This document shows positions 41,434 through 51,975 of a stretch of 64,000 nt of DNA, in pieces. The notes beneath the pieces are model-generated. The model was not told where the DNA came from, ran no database searches, and saw only the letters and a list, made by a program, of their open reading frames with translations. Origin of the DNA: Collinsella aerofaciens ATCC 25986 (GTDB lineage Bacteria; Actinomycetota; Coriobacteriia; Coriobacteriales; Coriobacteriaceae); assembly GCF_010509075.1 (NCBI RefSeq), contig NZ_CP048433.1, positions 1,302,001-1,366,000 of the forward strand. Reading direction: 5' to 3'. A program made the translations under genes and the position numbers. The stretch's first letter is position 1. Every line of letters begins with the position of its first letter.

Positions 41434-42252
41434 CTAGCCGATGGCGTTTTTGAGTTCGGCGCGGCGCTTTTTCATGCCCGTCATGACGGCATTGCGCAAC
41501 TCGGGCATGCGCGCGGTATCCATCTGGGGCACGCCCTCAAGCTTATAGGGAATGCCCAGTTGCTCGTACTTGACGACACCCATCGTGTGATACGGCAGCA
41601 TCTCCAAACCCACCACGTTGTGCCATGGAGCGATCAGGCAACCAAGCTTCTCGCATTCCTCCACCGTGTCGGTAATGCCCGGCACCACCACGTGGCGGAT
41701 AACGACCTTAATCTTGCGACGTGCAAGCTCATCGCCAAACGCCAGGATGCGTGCGGGATCACAACCGGTCAGCTTTTTATGCTCGACGGGATCGGCGTGC
41801 TTAATGTCGAGCAGCACCATATCGGTCTCGTTGAGTACGGCATCGAACTTCTCGGGATGCGCGGGATCGAACGCATAGCCACAGCTATCCAAGCAGGTAT
41901 GCACGCGACCATCGGGGTTGTTGTGCATGGCACAGAACAGGTCGGCCAAAAACTCAGGCTGTAGGAGCGGCTCGCCGCCGGACACCGTAATGCCACCGCT
42001 GCGATAGAACTCGTGGTTACTCTGGAACTCATCCATCAGGTGTTCGACGGTCACCATGGTGCCGCCGTTAACAGACCAGGTATCGGGATTGTGACAATAC
42101 GCGCAGCGCATGGGACAGCCCTGGACAAACACCACAAAGCGAATGCCGGGTCCGTCGACCGTTCCCATCGTCTCGATTGAATGCACGCGGCCAAGGGCAA
42201 ACGCAGAGTCCTCGGGACGAGCGTCCACACCCTCAAGCGTCATTTCTGCCAT
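41434..42252 (-). CDS. pflA: pyruvate formate-lyase activating enzyme
   Basis: A 272-residue radical SAM activase that puts the glycyl radical on pyruvate formate-lyase. The cluster motif is CPMRCAYC, with TVDGPGIRFVVFVQG before it and SGGEPLLQPEF, DIKHADP and RHVVVPGITD after, all diagnostic of PflA. ATG 42252 is taken as start (AAGG eight bases upstream), with ATG 42243 possible. It lies about 7.3 kb from its substrate genes at 49587-51975, with DegV and the sucrose operon in between. Confidence 0.93.
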   Translation of the reverse strand: MAEMTLEGVDARPEDSAFALGRVHSIETMGTVDGPGIRFVVFVQGCPMRCAYCHNPDTWSVNGGTMVTVEHLMDEFQSNHEFYRSGGITVSGGEPLLQPEFLADLFCAMHNNPDGRVHTCLDSCGYAFDPAHPEKFDAVLNETDMVLLDIKHADPVEHKKLTGCDPARILAFGDELARRKIKVVIRHVVVPGITDTVEECEKLGCLIAPWHNVVGLEMLPYHTMGVVKYEQLGIPYKLEGVPQMDTARMPELRNAVMTGMKKRRAELKNAIG

Positions 42253-42287
42253 TCGCGCTACCTTGCCTCTCCTTGGATGCAACCAAT

Positions 42288-43556: not shown

Positions 43557-44999
43557 TTAATGAGCGAGGCGGTAGAAATCCATCGACGCCGCGCCCTCGG
43601 CGTGCAGCGCCATCGCCGGAACCGCCGACGAATAGGTACGGCTCGTAAGTGCCGCCTCACCGCCGTTGGCAAAAATCTCGACCATCGTAGTGTCCGAAAG
43701 CACGCGCAGGTCGCGAAGCTCGCCGAGCTCAATCGACCTCTGGTCGCGCCCATAGCCTTCGTCACCCATGTCGAGGGTAAGCATCCCGTCCGCATAGCGC
43801 ACAAAGACACCCTTGCGAATCTCGAGCTCAACCATCTTGGCGCCCTCACAGGAAACCACGAGATCAAACAGGCGGCCCGGCTCCTCAACGGTTTCACCGC
43901 CTGTCGTGCGAACGCAGTCGCCGCGCATCCTCTCAATCTCGTGCGCCGGCTGCTGGCAGAGCTTACCATCGCGCATGCTCAGCTCTCGCGGCACCGTCAA
44001 CGCGCACTGCCACCCGCGCGCCACCGTCGGGTTTTCCGCCGTCGCATCGGGGCAACCCGACCATCCGATCATCAATCGCCGGCCTGCAGCATCCTCAAAG
44101 GACTGCGGAGCATAGAAATCAAAACCGGCATCGACCATCGGGGGCATGCCCTTCCCGACGATTTTAAAGCTCGGCGCCTCCCAATCGGCCTCGATGGGGA
44201 ACCACACGCACTGATGCGGATTGCGGTAACGCCAACCATCGGCAGGCACACCCTGCGGACAGCAAACGAGAATAAGCTCGCCATCAAGCTCAAACAGATC
44301 AGGGCACTCCCACATAAAGCCAAACTTCTCGCCCAGCTCAATGCGCGTCGCATAGCTCCAGACCCCTAAATCACGCGAAGTATAGACAAGCACGCAGCCA
44401 CGGTCGTCTTTCGTACGAGCGCCCAGAACCATGTAGTAGATACCATCGTGCTCAAGGATCTTGGGGTCGCGCACGTGCGTACCGATATCGTCGGGGTAAT
44501 CGACTGGTCCAACAGCCATGCGCTTCTCGCCCAATTCGTCGGGATTCTCGGCAACCATATGAATCTGGTTTTGCTCACGGCCCGTCAACACGTAGTCGTA
44601 ATCATCGCGGTCAAAATGCTTGACGTTGCCGGTATAGAAGTAGTGAATCTTGCCATCACGTACAAAGGCAGAACCAGAATACGCTCCGCTCGAATCCAAA
44701 TCGGAATCGGGGAACAGCACGGGGCCGTGATTCTCGTACGTCACAAAATCCTTTGTCGTCAGATGGTTCCAAAGCACTGGACCGCCATGCGCAGCATCGA
44801 ACGGATCGTATTGATGATAGATGTGATACGTATCACCAATCTGAACCAAACCATTGGGGTCGTTGAGCCAGCCAAGCTCAGGCTCCACATGGAACAAAAG
44901 CCTATCGGGGTCGGATGCGATGCGAGCCACCGTCTCATCCTGTCCGGCACGCCACTGCTCATAGTCCGCGCATGTCACCTTATTTTTTTGATTAAACAT
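43557..44999 (-). CDS. scrB: sucrose-6-phosphate hydrolase (GH32)
   Basis: A 480-residue invertase-type enzyme splitting the sucrose 6-phosphate made by the PTS. The five-bladed propeller motifs are present: WLNDPNG with the nucleophile Asp near residue 45, YHQYDPF, SGSAF, the transition-state stabiliser HVRDPK and the acid/base Glu in MWECPDLF. A C-terminal beta-sandwich follows (about residues 350-480). It is the last gene of the operon, about 100 bases after the PTS gene, with an imperfect hairpin in that gap. Confidence 0.93.
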   Translation of the reverse strand: MFNQKNKVTCADYEQWRAGQDETVARIASDPDRLLFHVEPELGWLNDPNGLVQIGDTYHIYHQYDPFDAAHGGPVLWNHLTTKDFVTYENHGPVLFPDSDLDSSGAYSGSAFVRDGKIHYFYTGNVKHFDRDDYDYVLTGREQNQIHMVAENPDELGEKRMAVGPVDYPDDIGTHVRDPKILEHDGIYYMVLGARTKDDRGCVLVYTSRDLGVWSYATRIELGEKFGFMWECPDLFELDGELILVCCPQGVPADGWRYRNPHQCVWFPIEADWEAPSFKIVGKGMPPMVDAGFDFYAPQSFEDAAGRRLMIGWSGCPDATAENPTVARGWQCALTVPRELSMRDGKLCQQPAHEIERMRGDCVRTTGGETVEEPGRLFDLVVSCEGAKMVELEIRKGVFVRYADGMLTLDMGDEGYGRDQRSIELGELRDLRVLSDTTMVEIFANGGEAALTSRTYSSAVPAMALHAEGAASMDFYRLAH

Positions 45000-45100
45000 C
45001 GCCGTTGACTTTCTCGTCTATGGGAAAGGACGCTCGACTCACACGAGCCGAACGCCCTTCCCCAAATGGACTTATCCGCACATTACGCTGAACGGCTCAA

Positions 45101-46552
45101 CTAGAAGCTAACGTCGAAGCCAGCGCCAGCGCCCTCTTCATCGGTGGTCGGCACGCCCTTTGCCTTGTTGTAGGCAAAGATCAAGACGATCGGCACGATG
45201 AAGGCGATGAGATTGCCAGCCACATACCACACGAGCGTCTCGGGCGTAACGATGAGCAGGCCAAGCACGCCGGTCAGACCCTGACCGATGGCGCGCACCT
45301 CAAAGAGCTTCACGAAGGCACCGCCGCAGCCTGCACCGATGCAAGCGCAGATGAACGGGATGATCGAGTAGCGCATGTTTGCAGCAAAGATTGCGGGCTC
45401 GGAGATACCGACCAGCGTCGGGATAAAGGACGACATGCAGATGTTGCGCTCTTTGGAATGCTTCTTGTGAATGAGGTACATGCCGATGGCGCCGCCGCCC
45501 TGGGCGATGATGGAAACCGACCAGATTGCCTGGATGTAGTTGAAGCCAGTCGTGGCAACGAGGTTTGCCTCGATACCCTGGATGAACTGATGCGTACCGG
45601 TAACGACGAGCGGCTGCAGGAATGCGGCAAAGACAAAGGCACCGAAGACGCCCATCCTGTTGTACAGGATATCGATTACGCCGGCGAGGACGTCGCCGAT
45701 CAGGTTGCCGAGCGGGCCGAACACGGTGAACAGGGCGACGTTAGCAAGAATCAGGGTAACGGTCGGGACAAAGACGAACGAAACGACCTCGGGGATGTAC
45801 TTCTGGGCAATCTTCTCGACCTTGGCCATAAACCAGGCAGTCAGGATTGCAGGGAACACGCCGCCCTGGAAAGCAACCATGGGAATGGAGAGCGGACCGA
45901 AGTTCCAGTACTCAGCACCCGTCGGGTCCATAACGAACGTGTTACGGTTCATAAGGCTCGGGTGAACCATGACGATACCGACGAGGATGCCCAGGATCGG
46001 GTTACCGCCAAAACGCTTGACCGCGCTGTACATAACCAGGACAGGTAGGTAGTCGAAGGTGGTGGCGATAATGGCAAAGAAGCTTGCGAGGTTCTTGAGG
46101 AACTCGCTGTGATCGGCGAGGCTGCCCTCCATGCCAAAGAGGCCGTTGGCAACAATCAGCGACTTAAGGCCGATGATGATAGCAGCGCCGACGAAAGCGG
46201 GAATGATGGGGATAAAGATGTCCGAGAATACCTTGAGGACCGAGAAGAACTTGCCCTTCTTGTCCGCCTCGGCGCCCTTGACCTCGGAAGCGCTAATCTC
46301 CTTAACGCCCGTCAGAGCCATAAACTCATCGTAAACCTTGTTGACGGTACCGGTACCGAAGATGATCATGAGCTGGCCGCTGTTGTACAGCACGCCCTTG
46401 ACGCCATCGATGTTCTCGAGCTCGGCCTTGTTGTACTTGCTCGTATCCTTGAGCACCAGACGCAGACGCGTAACGCAATGCGTGGCGCCCTCGATGTTCT
46501 CCAGACCGCCGACGTTATCGACGACTTGCTGAGACACTACTTTGTAGTCCAT
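45101..46552 (-). CDS. scrA: sucrose/beta-fructoside PTS transporter subunit IIBC
   Basis: A 483-residue membrane enzyme II. The IIB domain (residues ~1-90) has GATHCVTRLRLVLKD with the phosphorylated Cys, and the IIC domain (~105-460) has about ten spans with GGNPILGILVGIVMVHPSL and SEPAIFAANMRYS, typical of the glucose-sucrose superfamily. No IIA domain is fused, so phosphate must come from a separate glucose-type IIA outside this window. ATG 46552 follows GGAGAGGAAC. Confidence 0.9.
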   Translation of the reverse strand: MDYKVVSQQVVDNVGGLENIEGATHCVTRLRLVLKDTSKYNKAELENIDGVKGVLYNSGQLMIIFGTGTVNKVYDEFMALTGVKEISASEVKGAEADKKGKFFSVLKVFSDIFIPIIPAFVGAAIIIGLKSLIVANGLFGMEGSLADHSEFLKNLASFFAIIATTFDYLPVLVMYSAVKRFGGNPILGILVGIVMVHPSLMNRNTFVMDPTGAEYWNFGPLSIPMVAFQGGVFPAILTAWFMAKVEKIAQKYIPEVVSFVFVPTVTLILANVALFTVFGPLGNLIGDVLAGVIDILYNRMGVFGAFVFAAFLQPLVVTGTHQFIQGIEANLVATTGFNYIQAIWSVSIIAQGGGAIGMYLIHKKHSKERNICMSSFIPTLVGISEPAIFAANMRYSIIPFICACIGAGCGGAFVKLFEVRAIGQGLTGVLGLLIVTPETLVWYVAGNLIAFIVPIVLIFAYNKAKGVPTTDEEGAGAGFDVSF

Positions 46553-46597
46553 GTTCCTCTCCATTCCTTTACGAAATCATAAGACGTTTTGATGCCA

Positions 46598-47980
46598 TTA
46601 CAGAGACGCGATCGTTGCATTTGCGCACTTAAGCGTACCGTCGGTGACCGTCAGCGCCACACCCTGGCCCTGCTTATTGCAGAATCGAGCGTTAAGCGCA
46701 ACATCATCGACAAAGATGGTCGCGATATCGTCGTCAACGACCAGGCGCACATGATGAGTGCCCTCGCCCTTAAAGAACAACGGACGCTCGAGGCCCATGT
46801 TGTTGACCTGGAACCACGGGTACTGGGGAGCCGGCGTGAACTCGAGCTTGCCCTCGCGCAGGTTGGCGCGGAACTCATAGGCAAGACCGGTCTCGGCGTC
46901 CTCGGCGAACTTGACCGAGAAGCCGGCAGCGTCACCGGCGAGCTCGATGTCGGCATCGAGCATATAGGTGGAACCGGCATCCGCGGCGAGCACCTGCTCG
47001 ACCTTGCCCGACTCGCAGGAAAGCTCAAAGGCCTCGACTGCCTTAGCCTCGCCAAAGGCGCCAAGCATGCTGTCAGGGAGCTTGGTGCCGAGCGTTCCGT
47101 CGGCACGCTGAACGATCTCGAGAGGCATAAAGGTGCCACCCCACAGGTAAGAGCTGGGATCGCCACCCTCGTCACGCGTAGGAACCCAACCAAAGAGAAC
47201 GCGGCGCTCGCCATCAAATGCGGTACGCGCGGCATAGTACGCGCGGCCATCGAATGAATCGTCAGCAGGAGTGATCCAAGGACCGTTGATGGAGCGAGAC
47301 ATGCGGTAACGGGTCTTGTTGCCATCACTGTACTCGGAGAACACCAGATACCACCAGTCGCCCATCTTAAAGAGATCAGGCATCTCGAACATGGTGTAAA
47401 GGCCCGGATTCCACCAGTCGCCCTGGAACTCCCAGGTATCCAGGTCCTTGGAGGTGAACTTGACCAGACGCCCGGTCATCAGACGCTTGTCCTCGCCCAC
47501 GCGCGTGCCGAGGATGAGCATGTACTCTTCGTTCTCCTCATCCCAAAGCACAAAGGGATCGCGCCAGTTGCGGTCATCGTAACCTTCCTGGGGCGGAAGC
47601 AGCGTCTCGGCGATGTTCTTCTCCCACTTGACGGCGTCGTCACTCGTTGCGTGAAGAAGAACCTGCTTCATCAAGCGTGCGCGGACCTTATCGCGATTGC
47701 AACCAGTGTAGAGCGCATGGTACTTGTCGCCCACCTTAAACACCGTGCCGGCATAAACATACTGGTCGACTTCCTCGTCGCCGCCACGCTCAAGGCTCTC
47801 GCCAAAGTCCTTGTAGTTGACGAAATCCTTGGTCGTCGCGAGTGCCCAACCAAACGGCTCTCCGAAAGGACCGGGGTTTCGCGTGTCACGCTGGTGATAG
47901 AGATAGAACGTGCCGTCCTCGCCGTACGGCATGATGTCGCCTACCCAAATTCCCTCAGGCTGGTAATACACCTTGTGCAT
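46598..47980 (-). CDS. GH32-like glycosidase, atypical
   Basis: A 460-residue protein with a five-bladed-propeller pattern (YLYHQRD, VYAGTVFKVGDKYHALYTG, NWRDPFVLWDEENEEYML, MFEMPDLFKMGDWWYLVF) and a C-terminal beta-sandwich. The RDP and E-M-P-D motifs keep the stabiliser and acid/base positions of GH32. The nucleophile motif WLNDPNG is replaced by WVGDIMPYG, which keeps an Asp but not the usual context. It is the first gene of the operon, so it probably handles a fructoside other than sucrose 6-phosphate. ATG 47980 follows GAAAGGAAG. Confidence 0.78.
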   Translation of the reverse strand: MHKVYYQPEGIWVGDIMPYGEDGTFYLYHQRDTRNPGPFGEPFGWALATTKDFVNYKDFGESLERGGDEEVDQYVYAGTVFKVGDKYHALYTGCNRDKVRARLMKQVLLHATSDDAVKWEKNIAETLLPPQEGYDDRNWRDPFVLWDEENEEYMLILGTRVGEDKRLMTGRLVKFTSKDLDTWEFQGDWWNPGLYTMFEMPDLFKMGDWWYLVFSEYSDGNKTRYRMSRSINGPWITPADDSFDGRAYYAARTAFDGERRVLFGWVPTRDEGGDPSSYLWGGTFMPLEIVQRADGTLGTKLPDSMLGAFGEAKAVEAFELSCESGKVEQVLAADAGSTYMLDADIELAGDAAGFSVKFAEDAETGLAYEFRANLREGKLEFTPAPQYPWFQVNNMGLERPLFFKGEGTHHVRLVVDDDIATIFVDDVALNARFCNKQGQGVALTVTDGTLKCANATIASL

Positions 47981-48029
47981 CCGAGACTTCCTTTCCCACA
48001 AGATACTAACTCGGTACAACTGCAAGATA

Positions 48030-48061
48030 TGTCAATCGTTTTCATATGTCAAACGTTTTCA
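48030..48061 (-). promoter_or_regulatory. sucrose operon promoter with two LacI-type operators
   Basis: TGTCAATCGTTTTCA (48030-48044) and TGTCAAACGTTTTCA (48047-48061) are near-identical sites 17 bp apart. On the minus strand they contain TTGACA, 17 bases, TATCTT, which is a good promoter. A third related site, GGCAAACGGTTGACA, is near 48093-48108. Confidence 0.7.
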
Positions 48062-48164
48062 CACTAATACGTCTTTTCGCAGTTCCAGTCGTCGGCAAAC
48101 GGTTGACATATGGCGGCGAACGGTCATCAGAGGCGTTTGAGGAATTCTTTTGGCACGGGATGAA

Positions 48165-49175
48165 CTACGCGGTTTTGCCCTCAATGAGTTCAACGGGGAG
48201 CTTGGTATTCGATTCGGGCTTTTCACCGTTAACAAGAGCGATGATGGATTGCGCCGCGAGCTCTCCGATGCGATCGATATCTTGACGAACGGTTGTTAAG
48301 TCAGGCATAAACGTCATAGTGCGGCGGGCGCCATCCGCGCCCACGACCTTAATATCGTCCGGAGCGCTCAAGCCGCGCCGCTTCATCACGTTGAGGCAGA
48401 TGGCCGCCATCGTGTCGTCTCCCGCAAAGATGCCGTCAATATCGGGGTTCTCATCGAGGATCTTCGCAACGACCGCACTCTTTTCGTCATCGGACTTAAC
48501 GAACTCGACCTCACGGACAAGCGCGGGCAAACCGGCCTGCTCCACAACATCGTGGTAGGCATCGGTACGCTTATTGGCAGGCATGCGCATGCGGCTATTG
48601 TTGCGCAGGCACAAGATGCGCGAACACCCGTCATCAATCAGGCGACGCGTGGCAAGTTCGCCGATGCCATAGCTGTCGCTCGCAATCTGAACAGAGGTCT
48701 CGCCAAGGTCGCAGTCGATACCAACCAGACTCAAGCCCATCTCGGCATACGCCTCGGCACCGATATTAAGCGAGTTGACGATGACGCCATCAACCATATT
48801 GCGCCGAAGCATATCGATATAAGAACGCTCAAGATCAGGTCGATTGGCGCTATTGCACAGCAACATCTTAAAACCGTTTTCGGCCAGGGTACGCTCAACG
48901 GCTTGGACCGCTTGGGCATGAAACGGGCTGCTGACATAGGGGACTATCATACCTATTAGATTCAGGCGACCGTTGAGCATGGCACGGGCGATATCGTTGG
49001 GCGTATAGTTGATGCGCTTCATCGCGGCATGGACCTTATCGCGGGTCTCTTGGCTAATATAGCCGCGATTATTAAGCACGCGAGATACCGTAGTAGGCGA
49101 AACCCCCGCCACCGCTGCAACTTCCTTGATGCCAGGCTTAGCCGAATCCTTAGAACGAGCGCCCTCGCGAGCCAT
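48165..49175 (-). CDS. scrR: LacI-family repressor of the sucrose operon
   Basis: A 336-residue regulator. The N-terminal helix-turn-helix and hinge are IKEVAAVAGVSPTTVSRVLNNRGYIS and NYTPNDIARAML. The periplasmic-binding-protein-like ligand domain follows (LIGMIVPYVSSPFHAQAVQ, VVGADGARR). ATG 49175 follows GGAGGGTGCT. Sites upstream of the operon and one in its own promoter (49196-49210) suggest autoregulation with sucrose or fructose derivatives as inducer. Confidence 0.85.
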   Translation of the reverse strand: MAREGARSKDSAKPGIKEVAAVAGVSPTTVSRVLNNRGYISQETRDKVHAAMKRINYTPNDIARAMLNGRLNLIGMIVPYVSSPFHAQAVQAVERTLAENGFKMLLCNSANRPDLERSYIDMLRRNMVDGVIVNSLNIGAEAYAEMGLSLVGIDCDLGETSVQIASDSYGIGELATRRLIDDGCSRILCLRNNSRMRMPANKRTDAYHDVVEQAGLPALVREVEFVKSDDEKSAVVAKILDENPDIDGIFAGDDTMAAICLNVMKRRGLSAPDDIKVVGADGARRTMTFMPDLTTVRQDIDRIGELAAQSIIALVNGEKPESNTKLPVELIEGKTA

Positions 49176-49195
49176 AGCACCCTCCCCCATCAACA

Positions 49196-49210
49196 TGTCA
49201 TACGTTTACA
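49196..49210. promoter_or_regulatory. LacI-type operator before the repressor gene
   Basis: TGTCATACGTTTACA matches the sucrose operon operators at 12 of 15 bases and lies 21 bases before the repressor start. Confidence 0.6.
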
Positions 49211-49586: not shown

Positions 49587-49838
49587 TTAGAACTTGTCGT
49601 GGAAGGTACGCGCAATGACCTCGTCCTGCTGCTCCTTGGTGAGCGTGTGGAAGTTCACGGCGTAGCCGGAAACGCGGATGGTCAGCTGCGGATACTTCTC
49701 GGGGTGAGCCTGAGCGTCGAGCAGCGTCTCACGGTTGAAGACGTTGATGTTCAGGTGGTGGCCACCCTTCTCGGCGTAAGCGTCGAGCATGTGGACCAGG
49801 TTATCGGCCTGAGTCTCGGAAACTTCAGAAACCTTCAT
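49587..49838 (-). CDS. grcA: glycyl-radical subunit of split pyruvate formate-lyase
   Basis: An 83-residue protein that is wholly the C-terminal glycyl-radical domain of [37 protein letters not shown] with the radical Gly, and a family-typical ending RTFHDKF. ATG 49838 has a textbook AAGGAG. Unlike E. coli YfiD/GrcA, which rescues oxygen-cleaved full-length PFL, here it appears to supply the only copy of this domain next to pflB, because that gene stops before it. The separately encoded PflA would install the radical. The 85-base gap from pflB holds two hairpins. Confidence 0.9.
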
Positions 49839-49861
49839 AATGTGTCTCCTTCGATTAATAG

Positions 49862-49881
49862 GCGCCGGCCGAAACCGGCGC
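49862..49881 (-). terminator. GC hairpin before grcA
   Basis: GCGCCGG (49862-49868) / CCGGCGC (49875-49881), followed on the minus strand by CTATTAAT and then the grcA ribosome site. It is likely a partial terminator or a protective stem within the pflB-grcA transcript. Confidence 0.55.
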
Positions 49882-49897
49882 ACTAATCAGTAATCGT

Positions 49898-49922
49898 TAT
49901 TGTTAGTATAGCACTAACAATA
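49898..49922 (-). repeat. AT-rich hairpin at the pflB stop
   Basis: A perfect 10-bp stem TATTGTTAGT (49898-49907) / ACTAACAATA (49913-49922) starts one base past the pflB stop codon. Confidence 0.7.
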
Positions 49923-49923
49923 G

Positions 49924-51975
49924 TTACTCGCCCAGCTGATCAAGGTCGATATCGCCAAAGAACACCTGGTCCTCCTTGCCGAGCGCACTCGGGATGATGG
50001 AGAAGGTGTTGGAGATGCCGTCCTGAGCATCGCGGAACGGGAGCTTGGAAACCGAAGACAGCGAAGCGATGGCGCCGTGGCTATCGCGCTTGTGCATGGG
50101 GTTAGCACCCGGGGCGAACGGCTGGCCAGCCTTGCGGCCGTCGGGCGTGGAGCCGGTCTTCTTACCGTACACGACGTTGGAGGTAATGGTCAGAACCGAG
50201 GTCGTAGGCACGGAGTTGCGGTAGGTATCGTTCATGCGGATGTACTCCATGAACTGGTGCACAACGTCGTGAGCGATCTGGTCGACGCGGTCGTCGTCGT
50301 TACCGTACTTGGGGAACTCGCCCTCGGTCTCGAAGTCGACGATGATGCCGTTCTCATCACGGACGGGGTGGACCTTGGCGTACTTGATGGCGGACAGGGA
50401 GTCAGCCACGACGGAAAGGCCAGCGATGCCCGTAGCGAACCAGCGGTGCACGTGCTTGTCGTGCAGAGCCATCTGGATGCGCTCGTAGCAATATTTGTCG
50501 TGCATGTAGTGAATGATGTTCAGCGAGTTGACGTACACGCCAGCGAGCCACTTCATCATGTCGTTGTACTTGGCCACAACGTCGTCGTAATCGAGCGTAT
50601 CGCCCTCGACGGCGCGATACTTGGGGCCGACCTGCTTCTTGGAGACCTCGTCAACACCGCCGTTGAGTGCGTACAGCAGGCACTTGGCCAGGTTGGCGCG
50701 AGCGCCGAAGAACTGCATCTCCTTGCCGATGCGCATGGAGGACACGCAGCAGGCGATGCCGTAGTCGTCGCCATGATAGACGCGCATGAGGTCGTCGTTC
50801 TCGTACTGGATCGAGGAGCTAGCGACAGAAGTCTTGGCGCAGAACTTCTTGAAGTTCTCGGGCAGACGGGTCGACCACAGAACGGTCATGTTGGGCTCGG
50901 GGCTGGTGCCCATGTTCTCGAGCGTGTGCAGGTAGCGGTAGCTCATCTTGGTAACGAGCGTACGGCCGTCGACACCCATGCCGCCGATGGACTCGGTGAC
51001 CCACTGCGGGTCGCCGGTGAACAGGGCCTGGTACTCGGGGGTACGGGCAAACTTGACCATGCGAAGCTTCATGATGAAGTGATCCACGAACTCCTGGATC
51101 TGCTCCTCGGTGAAGGTACCGTTGGCAAGGTCGCGCTCAGCGTAGATGTCGATGAACGTGGAGGTACGGCCGATGGACATAGCGGCGCCGTTCTGCTCCT
51201 TGACGGCAGCGAGGTAGGCGAAGTACATCCACTGGATGGCCTCCTGCGTGTTGGTAGCAGGGTTGGAAATATCGAAACCATAGGTCTCGGCCATCATCTT
51301 AAGCTCGCCGAGGGCGCGGATCTGCTCCTGCAGCTCCTCACGATCGCGGATGTTGTCGGCGGTCATGACCGTCGGGGTGGAAGCCTTCTGGGCCTCCTTG
51401 TCCTTGATCAGGTAGTCGACACCGTACAGGGCGACACGACGGTAGTCGCCGATGATGCGGCCGCGGCCATAGCCATCGGGCAGACCGGTGATGATGTGGG
51501 CCGAGCGGCAAGCACGCATCTCGGGGGTGTAAACATCGAAGACGCCGGCGTTGTGGGTCTTGCGCTCGAAGGTGTAGCGCTCGACAACGTTCTCGTCGAC
51601 CTTGTAGCCGTGCTGGCTGGCAGCCTGGCAAGCGATGCGGATACCACCGTTGACGTGCAGCGCGCGCTTGAGCGGCTTGTCGGTCTGGAGGCCGACGATA
51701 GTCTCCTTCTCGCGGTGGGCGTTATCGATGTAGCCAGCGGGGTGGCTCACGATACCCGTGACGATCTTGGTGTCCATATCGAGGACACCGCCCTGTTCGC
51801 GCTCCTTAAGCAGCAGGTCGAGAACCTCGCCCCACAGCTCCTTGGTACGCTCGGTCGGACCGACGAGGAACGACTCGTCGCCCTCGTAGGGGGTGTAGTT
51901 CTTCTGGATGAAGTCTCGGACGTCAACTTCTCCCGTCCAGATGCCTTCCTTGAAGCCTTCCCATGCCTCCTGCAT
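49924..51975 (-). CDS. pflB: pyruvate formate-lyase catalytic subunit, lacking the radical domain
   Basis: A 683-residue protein converting pyruvate and CoA to acetyl-CoA and formate. The ten-stranded barrel is complete: the paired active-site cysteines are in [10 protein letters not shown], with [16 protein letters not shown] and [18 protein letters not shown] also present. It ends at [12 protein letters not shown] with TAA, where single-chain PFLs (about 760-790 residues) continue through a linker to the glycyl-radical domain. That domain is the next gene, 49587-49838. The start at 51975 has GGAG 12 bases upstream. No frameshift is needed to explain the split, since the downstream gene has its own start signals. 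Confidence 0.92.

Follow-up and report, generated by a model that had tools for sequence, protein, structure and literature searches.

Pyruvate formate-lyase (PFL) of Escherichia coli (PflB; PDB 1H16 and 2PFL) is a single chain of 759 residues. Glycyl radical enzymes of several subunits also exist, among them 4-hydroxyphenylacetate decarboxylase and benzylsuccinate synthase, and in both the large subunit itself bears the radical domain. The small subunit of the decarboxylase has two Fe4S4 clusters, according to PMC11194802. Free-standing radical domains that complete a PFL barrel are represented by E. coli YfiD, also called GrcA (6OWR, TIGR04365), and by T4 Y06I. Both PMC8683613 and PMC11194802 treat such domains as repair parts; YfiD, which is 127 residues long and disordered in its N-terminal half, repairs oxygen-cleaved full-length PFL (PMC8683613).

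The same E. coli study (PMC8683613) describes an artificial two-chain enzyme. PFL residues 1-695 combined with truncated YfiD (61-127) are active, with an apparent kcat of 204 per second versus 105 for PFL when expressed per radical, but little radical is installed in it (2.7 versus 17.2 uM for PFL). Both residues 696-733 of cleaved PFL and the N-terminal 60 residues of YfiD are important for binding. A dissociation constant of 14 uM was measured for E. coli cPFL:YfiD, and ITC revealed no binding between the 1-695 barrel and YfiD or between the 1-733 barrel and truncated YfiD. The artificial pair is at least as active per radical as the wild type and yet poorly activated, which shows that catalysis can proceed on two chains and that the difficulty lies in their affinity. 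Any natural pair would need to have overcome this difficulty.

The window analyzed here, 64,000 nucleotides of the Collinsella aerofaciens ATCC 25986 genome (contig NZ_CP048433.1, positions 1,302,001 to 1,366,000), contains what its sequence very probably identifies as such a natural pair: a two-subunit PFL in which the small protein, GrcA3, serves as an obligate radical subunit and not as a repair spare. Activity, docking, radical installation and subunit exchange are properties that we infer for it. The features concerned are as follows, in window coordinates.

49924-51975, minus strand: large (barrel) subunit of the split PFL, 683 aa, ATG start
49587-49838, minus strand: GrcA3 glycyl radical subunit, 83 aa, ATG start
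49839-49923, minus strand: intergenic gap of 85 bases with two predicted hairpins and a ribosome-binding site
49850-49846, minus strand: ribosome-binding site AGGAG of the small gene, seven bases ahead of its ATG
50746-50751, minus strand: active-site pair Cys409-Cys410 of the large subunit, from the ORF translation
49665-49667, minus strand: radical Gly58 of GrcA3 within RVSGYAV, from the ORF translation
49927-49977, minus strand: C-terminal tail of the large subunit, 17 residues past the PSALG point, with no Cys
about 49922-49898, minus strand: predicted hairpin 1 in the pflB-grcA3 gap (fold prediction)
about 49888-49853, minus strand: predicted hairpin 2 in the pflB-grcA3 gap (fold prediction)
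41434-42282, minus strand: pflA, the radical SAM activase of PFL, 7.3 kb downstream of the PFL pair and on its strand

The first-pass annotation had described a pflB of 683 residues with both active-site cysteines and no radical domain, followed 85 bases on by an 83-residue RVSGYAV protein with its own ATG and ribosome-binding site; the coordinates, lengths and gap proved correct, and the ribosome-binding site is seen as AGGAG. The two predicted hairpins occupy most of the 49839-49923 gap. Folding of 49836-49940 gave -32.7 kcal/mol (z -2.95; 2 of 200 shuffles folded as well), and a scan of the 85-base gap found neither a sigma-70 promoter-like nor a terminator-like match. As a guess, the hairpins could set the product ratio of the two genes via mRNA stability. 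Sucrose-use genes in the same orientation (43557-49196, minus) separate the PFL pair from pflA; by profile match they include two hydrolases of GH32-like type, a sucrose-type PTS IIBC and a LacI-type regulator.

The locus shares with E. coli PFL its sequence family, the Cys pair, the radical motif and a PflA-type activase. The large protein matches TIGR01255 with 1082.7 bits (cut-off 994.2) over profile positions 1-665 of 744, and the small protein takes up the same profile at positions 663-743. Unlike the single E. coli chain, however, the C. aerofaciens large chain ends its homology near E. coli residue 680, and everything from 679 onward is encoded separately: large residues 3-671 align with E. 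coli PFL 9-680, and small residues 8-80 with 679-756. Together the two chains tile E. coli PFL 9-756, bearing out the initial proposal that the two products cover a nearly complete PFL. By alignment, Cys410 of the large subunit corresponds to E. coli Cys419, and C409 and C410 are invariant across 35 aligned sequences. The glycyl radical motif is absent from the large chain and sits in the separate 83-aa protein.

Comparison with YfiD brought out a difference. The small protein passes the GrcA3 model NF038360 (164.6 bits versus a cut-off of 158) and fails the GrcA model TIGR04365 (96.8 bits versus 170). It aligns with YfiD residues 66-125 at 84.2 bits, YfiD residue 66 pairing with GrcA3 residue 22, such that only 21 residues stand ahead of this point versus 65 in YfiD. 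C. aerofaciens GrcA3 is therefore without a YfiD-like N-terminal half, and its genome is without the full-length PFL that YfiD repairs.

This last point emerged from a profile search of the whole genome (2.46 Mb in 3 contigs, 99.93% complete), which found no second full-length PFL; PF02901 matched only the split locus. PF01228 matched the PFL pair and one 752-aa frame only, and from its translation that frame reads as NrdD, the class III ribonucleotide reductase. The view that the small gene is the only radical domain copy available to PFL thus held for the entire genome. A single PflA stands out as the sole one of three TIGR02493 matches above the cut-off (280.8 bits versus 231.75), and one match to the formate transporter family PF01226 exceeds its cut-off. 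Pyruvate:ferredoxin oxidoreductase is represented by one match, PF01558 in a 1201-aa frame; because this frame is present, and because a genome of the same genus (G021) has no PFL over the cut-off, PFL is not indispensable. No measured formate yield for C. aerofaciens was found in the literature searched.

To place the locus among its relatives, we kept the best 80 of at least 587 matching stretches, chosen by similarity to the split query. The split pair was present in 77 of these best 80; one locus (L076) was fused, and two (L012 and L084) were cut by contig ends lying just after or inside the large gene. In another, L020, the small gene is likewise cut by a contig end. Apart from the contig-end cases L012 and L084, no split relative lacked the small gene, and none of the near relatives had the two frames fused; either finding would have counted against the first-pass annotation. 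Because the best 80 had been selected by likeness to a split query, genomes were also sampled by taxonomy, comprising 148 Coriobacteriia and 243 Clostridia.

Among the Coriobacteriia, a PFL exceeded the cut-off in 61 of 148 genomes, being split in 50 and intact in 12, with both forms in one (G144). Conservation of the split in this class, which the annotation had left to be checked, is therefore the rule among PFL-bearing genomes. GrcA3 exceeded its cut-off in 50 of the 148, and these were identical to the 50 genomes with split PFL; it did so in none of the 11 Coriobacteriia genomes that have intact PFL only. The 28 genomes listed for the genus itself comprised 26 with a split PFL, one with an intact PFL (G135), and G021. 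Among the 243 Clostridia, at least 129 genomes have a PFL, split in 14 and intact in 116, with both forms in G378; these figures cover the matches listed down to 1064 bits, and copies between there and the cut-off may be missing. A free-standing small gene at E <= 1e-38 occurred among the 243 in all 14 split genomes and in G333, whose contig starts within the large gene. GrcA3 was over the cut-off in 13 of the 14 split Clostridia genomes (154.5 versus 158 in the remaining one, G324), and it was not found over the cut-off in any of the 243 that has only intact PFL. The matching sets of genomes thus show that the small gene accompanies the split large gene, not intact PFL. Split forms also occur in Erysipelotrichaceae and Spirochaetota. 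This genome is not exceptional in having the split, which is the common form in Coriobacteriia and the less frequent one in Clostridia. In one genome with intact PFL (G131), a 144-aa frame near a contig start gave a weak radical-domain match of 65.7 bits.

In all, 125 split loci were collected, 122 of them with a small gene; L012, its second copy L124, and L084 stop at contig ends. Duplicate copies, the cut L084 and the broken-frame L169 accounted for 15 loci that were dropped, leaving 110 in which some near-identical strains remain. The small gene lies downstream of the large one in 109 of the 110 and is preceded by a Shine-Dalgarno-like site in 107; ATG starts were assigned to the small genes by a rule that prefers ATG. 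The gap between the genes ranges from -17 to 982 bases across the 109 pairs. Terminators were considered as a reason for the long gaps and rejected: with a custom scan, terminator-like sites appeared in 1 of 50 gaps of at least 200 bases and in 1 of 59 shorter ones, compared with 1.3 and 0.3 for shuffles. Of 77 pairs examined, 57 have pflA downstream on the same strand, and in 43 of these it is no more than 300 bases from grcA3; for the others, the contig was too short in 5 and no pflA lay in the flank in 15, including C. aerofaciens L008.

Both genes appear to be under constraint: in a comparison with seven relatives, differences at third codon positions were 2.1 to 5.1 times as frequent as the average for the other two positions. 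Pairwise protein distances of the large and small subunits correlate (Mantel r 0.74, n 108, with 0 of 999 permutations as high), which shows joint inheritance of the two genes and is not evidence of contact between their products. Olsenella phocaeensis (L032 and L162) has a second GrcA3-like frame in the same orientation as its split pflB and roughly 3 kb upstream of it, where the surrounding frames are tangled.

To trace the history of the split, we built a tree of the shared core from 73 rows thinned by similarity, the bootstrap of which had not fully settled. The 40 split rows together with the fused L076 form one group (support 100/99). The nearest intact PFLs are those of Claveliimonas (L119), of G269 (L184), of G135 from the genus itself (L092) and of G101 from family f2 (L090). 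One further split form, L176, with a tail of 3 residues and a gap of 22 bases, was placed with those intact forms at weak support (90/61). Uniting all split forms including L176 in one group, with L076 inside, was not rejected (p 0.518), whereas a split group leaving L076 out, run without L176, was rejected (p 0.0047); both groupings were defined after the trees had been inspected. On the simplest reading, the split arose once, perhaps twice, and was undone once. L176 is a possible second independent split, and L076 (4001-6223, from a Lachnospiraceae MAG) a natural re-fusion, in which a single protein of 741 aa has a short linker and lacks the tail.

These data allow the competing explanations to be weighed. 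GrcA3 might be a YfiD-like repair spare beside a decayed or damaged PFL, with the real enzyme encoded elsewhere, as its homology to YfiD, the NCBIfam name "autonomous glycyl radical cofactor GrcA3", and the coexistence of split and intact PFL in G144 and G378 would suggest. We consider this very unlikely, since a full-length PFL is missing not only from C. aerofaciens but from 49 of the 50 split Coriobacteriia genomes and, among the matches listed (at least 1064 bits), an intact PFL is missing from 13 of the 14 split Clostridia genomes. Furthermore, GrcA3 over the cut-off was not found where PFL is intact only, and the protein lacks the N-terminal part of YfiD and falls short of the GrcA cut-off. 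An origin of the locus in an assembly error, or in a recent break through a nonsense or frameshift mutation, has a practically negligible probability. Broken frames do exist, for example in L169 (G334), which has a stop inside the large gene; however, the layout seen here recurs in other Collinsella records (L008 and L009), in most PFL-bearing Coriobacteriia genomes and in several phyla, the small gene has its own ATG, ribosome-binding site and sequence constraint, and the split forms make up one well supported group. The artefact at the gap that the first-pass annotation had raised is for the same reason unlikely.

It is also conceivable that the chains are joined during or after translation, by frameshifting, read-through or splicing, and that the working enzyme is one chain; the natural fusion L076 indeed shows that a single chain is tolerated. 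This we regard as extremely improbable in view of gaps spanning -17 to 982 bases, of small genes that are in the frame of the large gene at some loci and out of frame at others, and of a stop after the large-gene tail in 18 of 18 split Coriobacteriia loci read. An obligate radical subunit remains the best reading of GrcA3 because of the pairing of the genes across genomes and the grouping of the split forms. A PFL naturally split into barrel and radical subunits, as originally proposed, is thus supported by the lone PFL of the genome, co-occurrence in two classes, adjacency of the genes, selection on both, and the split grouping.

We envisage that the large subunit would provide the barrel minus its last strand, together with the Cys-Cys pair, and that GrcA3 would dock into this barrel and contribute the missing strand plus the loop bearing the glycyl radical. 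By homology, these are the elements that YfiD brings to the repaired E. coli enzyme. The single PflA may then install the radical on bound GrcA3, from which it would be passed to Cys410, and the two subunits together would make acetyl-CoA and formate from pyruvate and CoA. With the radical domain on a protein of its own, only 83 residues long, a copy cleaved by oxygen could conceivably be exchanged while the barrel is kept. A benefit from swapping the oxygen-damaged radical subunit is plausible.

How the natural subunits might hold together is suggested by the tail of the large one. Past the xALG point, where intact PFLs have the linker to the radical domain, split large subunits carry tails of 3 to 53 residues. 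At least two cysteines occur in the tail at 53 of the 110 loci, for example as DCGCC ends in Olsenella relatives and as CSNGACxSPTLFEGLD-like stretches in Bacillota (e.g. L013, L016, L110 and L115). The 53 loci with Cys-rich tails have a median gap of 57 bases, every gap being at most 210, whereas the 57 loci with fewer than two cysteines have a median of 290, with gaps above 200 bases in 49 of the 56 whose gap is known. The association of Cys tail and short gap yielded only 4 independent pairs on supported branches, which are too few for a test (median p 0.5). As GrcA3 and the natural large subunit are without either of the E. coli binding segments, the tail is a candidate replacement for them, and we infer that it may stand in for what was lost. 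At the window locus this hypothesis is not directly supported because the tail there has no cysteine. A broader scheme, which we put forward tentatively as somewhat short of probable, is that a large group of anaerobes uses a cartridge enzyme, with a durable barrel, a disposable radical cartridge encoded by a separate cistron so that an oxygen hit costs the cartridge alone, and a tail, Cys-rich in about half of the loci, as a new docking or redox-sensing element that would solve the weak binding known from the artificial E. coli pair; YfiD might represent a parallel use of this cartridge in bacteria that retained the fused enzyme.

Parts of the split PFL have been noticed by others, as the NCBIfam GrcA3 model and two PDB entries exist. 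Judged by its name and score, the model NF038360 presents an autonomous cofactor, whereas co-occurrence points to an obligate subunit. PDB 38lb ("Formate acetyltransferase") is a large subunit of the split type; it has a Cys-rich tail and aligns to its last residue with L112. PDB 38la, which bears the same name, ends at the split point, groups near split forms, and is probably also a split-type large subunit. A sequence search of PDB chains found no small-subunit chain for either entry, and no account of a naturally split PFL was found by title or abstract among openly licensed papers. The GrcA3 family and the PDB large subunits were already known; the present analysis contributes the genome-wide pairing of the two genes, the grouping of split forms with its single re-fusion, and the description of the tail.

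The PFL route to formate is widespread in gut bacteria, being present in 71.4% of the genomes in PMC9403272. If GrcA3 is obligate, many genomes contain members of a family whose name, that of an autonomous cofactor, misreads their role, and such a PFL expressed without its small gene would be a dead enzyme. The pair would also offer a natural system for radical installation, subunit exchange and oxygen damage on separate chains, to be set beside the artificial E. coli truncations of PMC8683613.

Another glycyl radical enzyme that looks split, its best score being to CutC, was observed in G085, a genome of the same genus (L160, 3775-7533, minus strand), where a 772-aa barrel without a radical domain is followed after 24 bases by a 98-aa protein with RVAGY and then by an activase. 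A free-standing close relative of this kind occurs in 1 of the 148 Coriobacteriia genomes, and L160 is therefore possibly a recent natural split or else a break. An apparent split glycyl radical enzyme in G154 (L161) was set aside, as it lies on a scaffold with N and tangled frames. Finally, the genomes that hold split and intact PFL side by side, G144 (L163 and L164) and G378 (L177), are usable for comparing the two forms within one cell.
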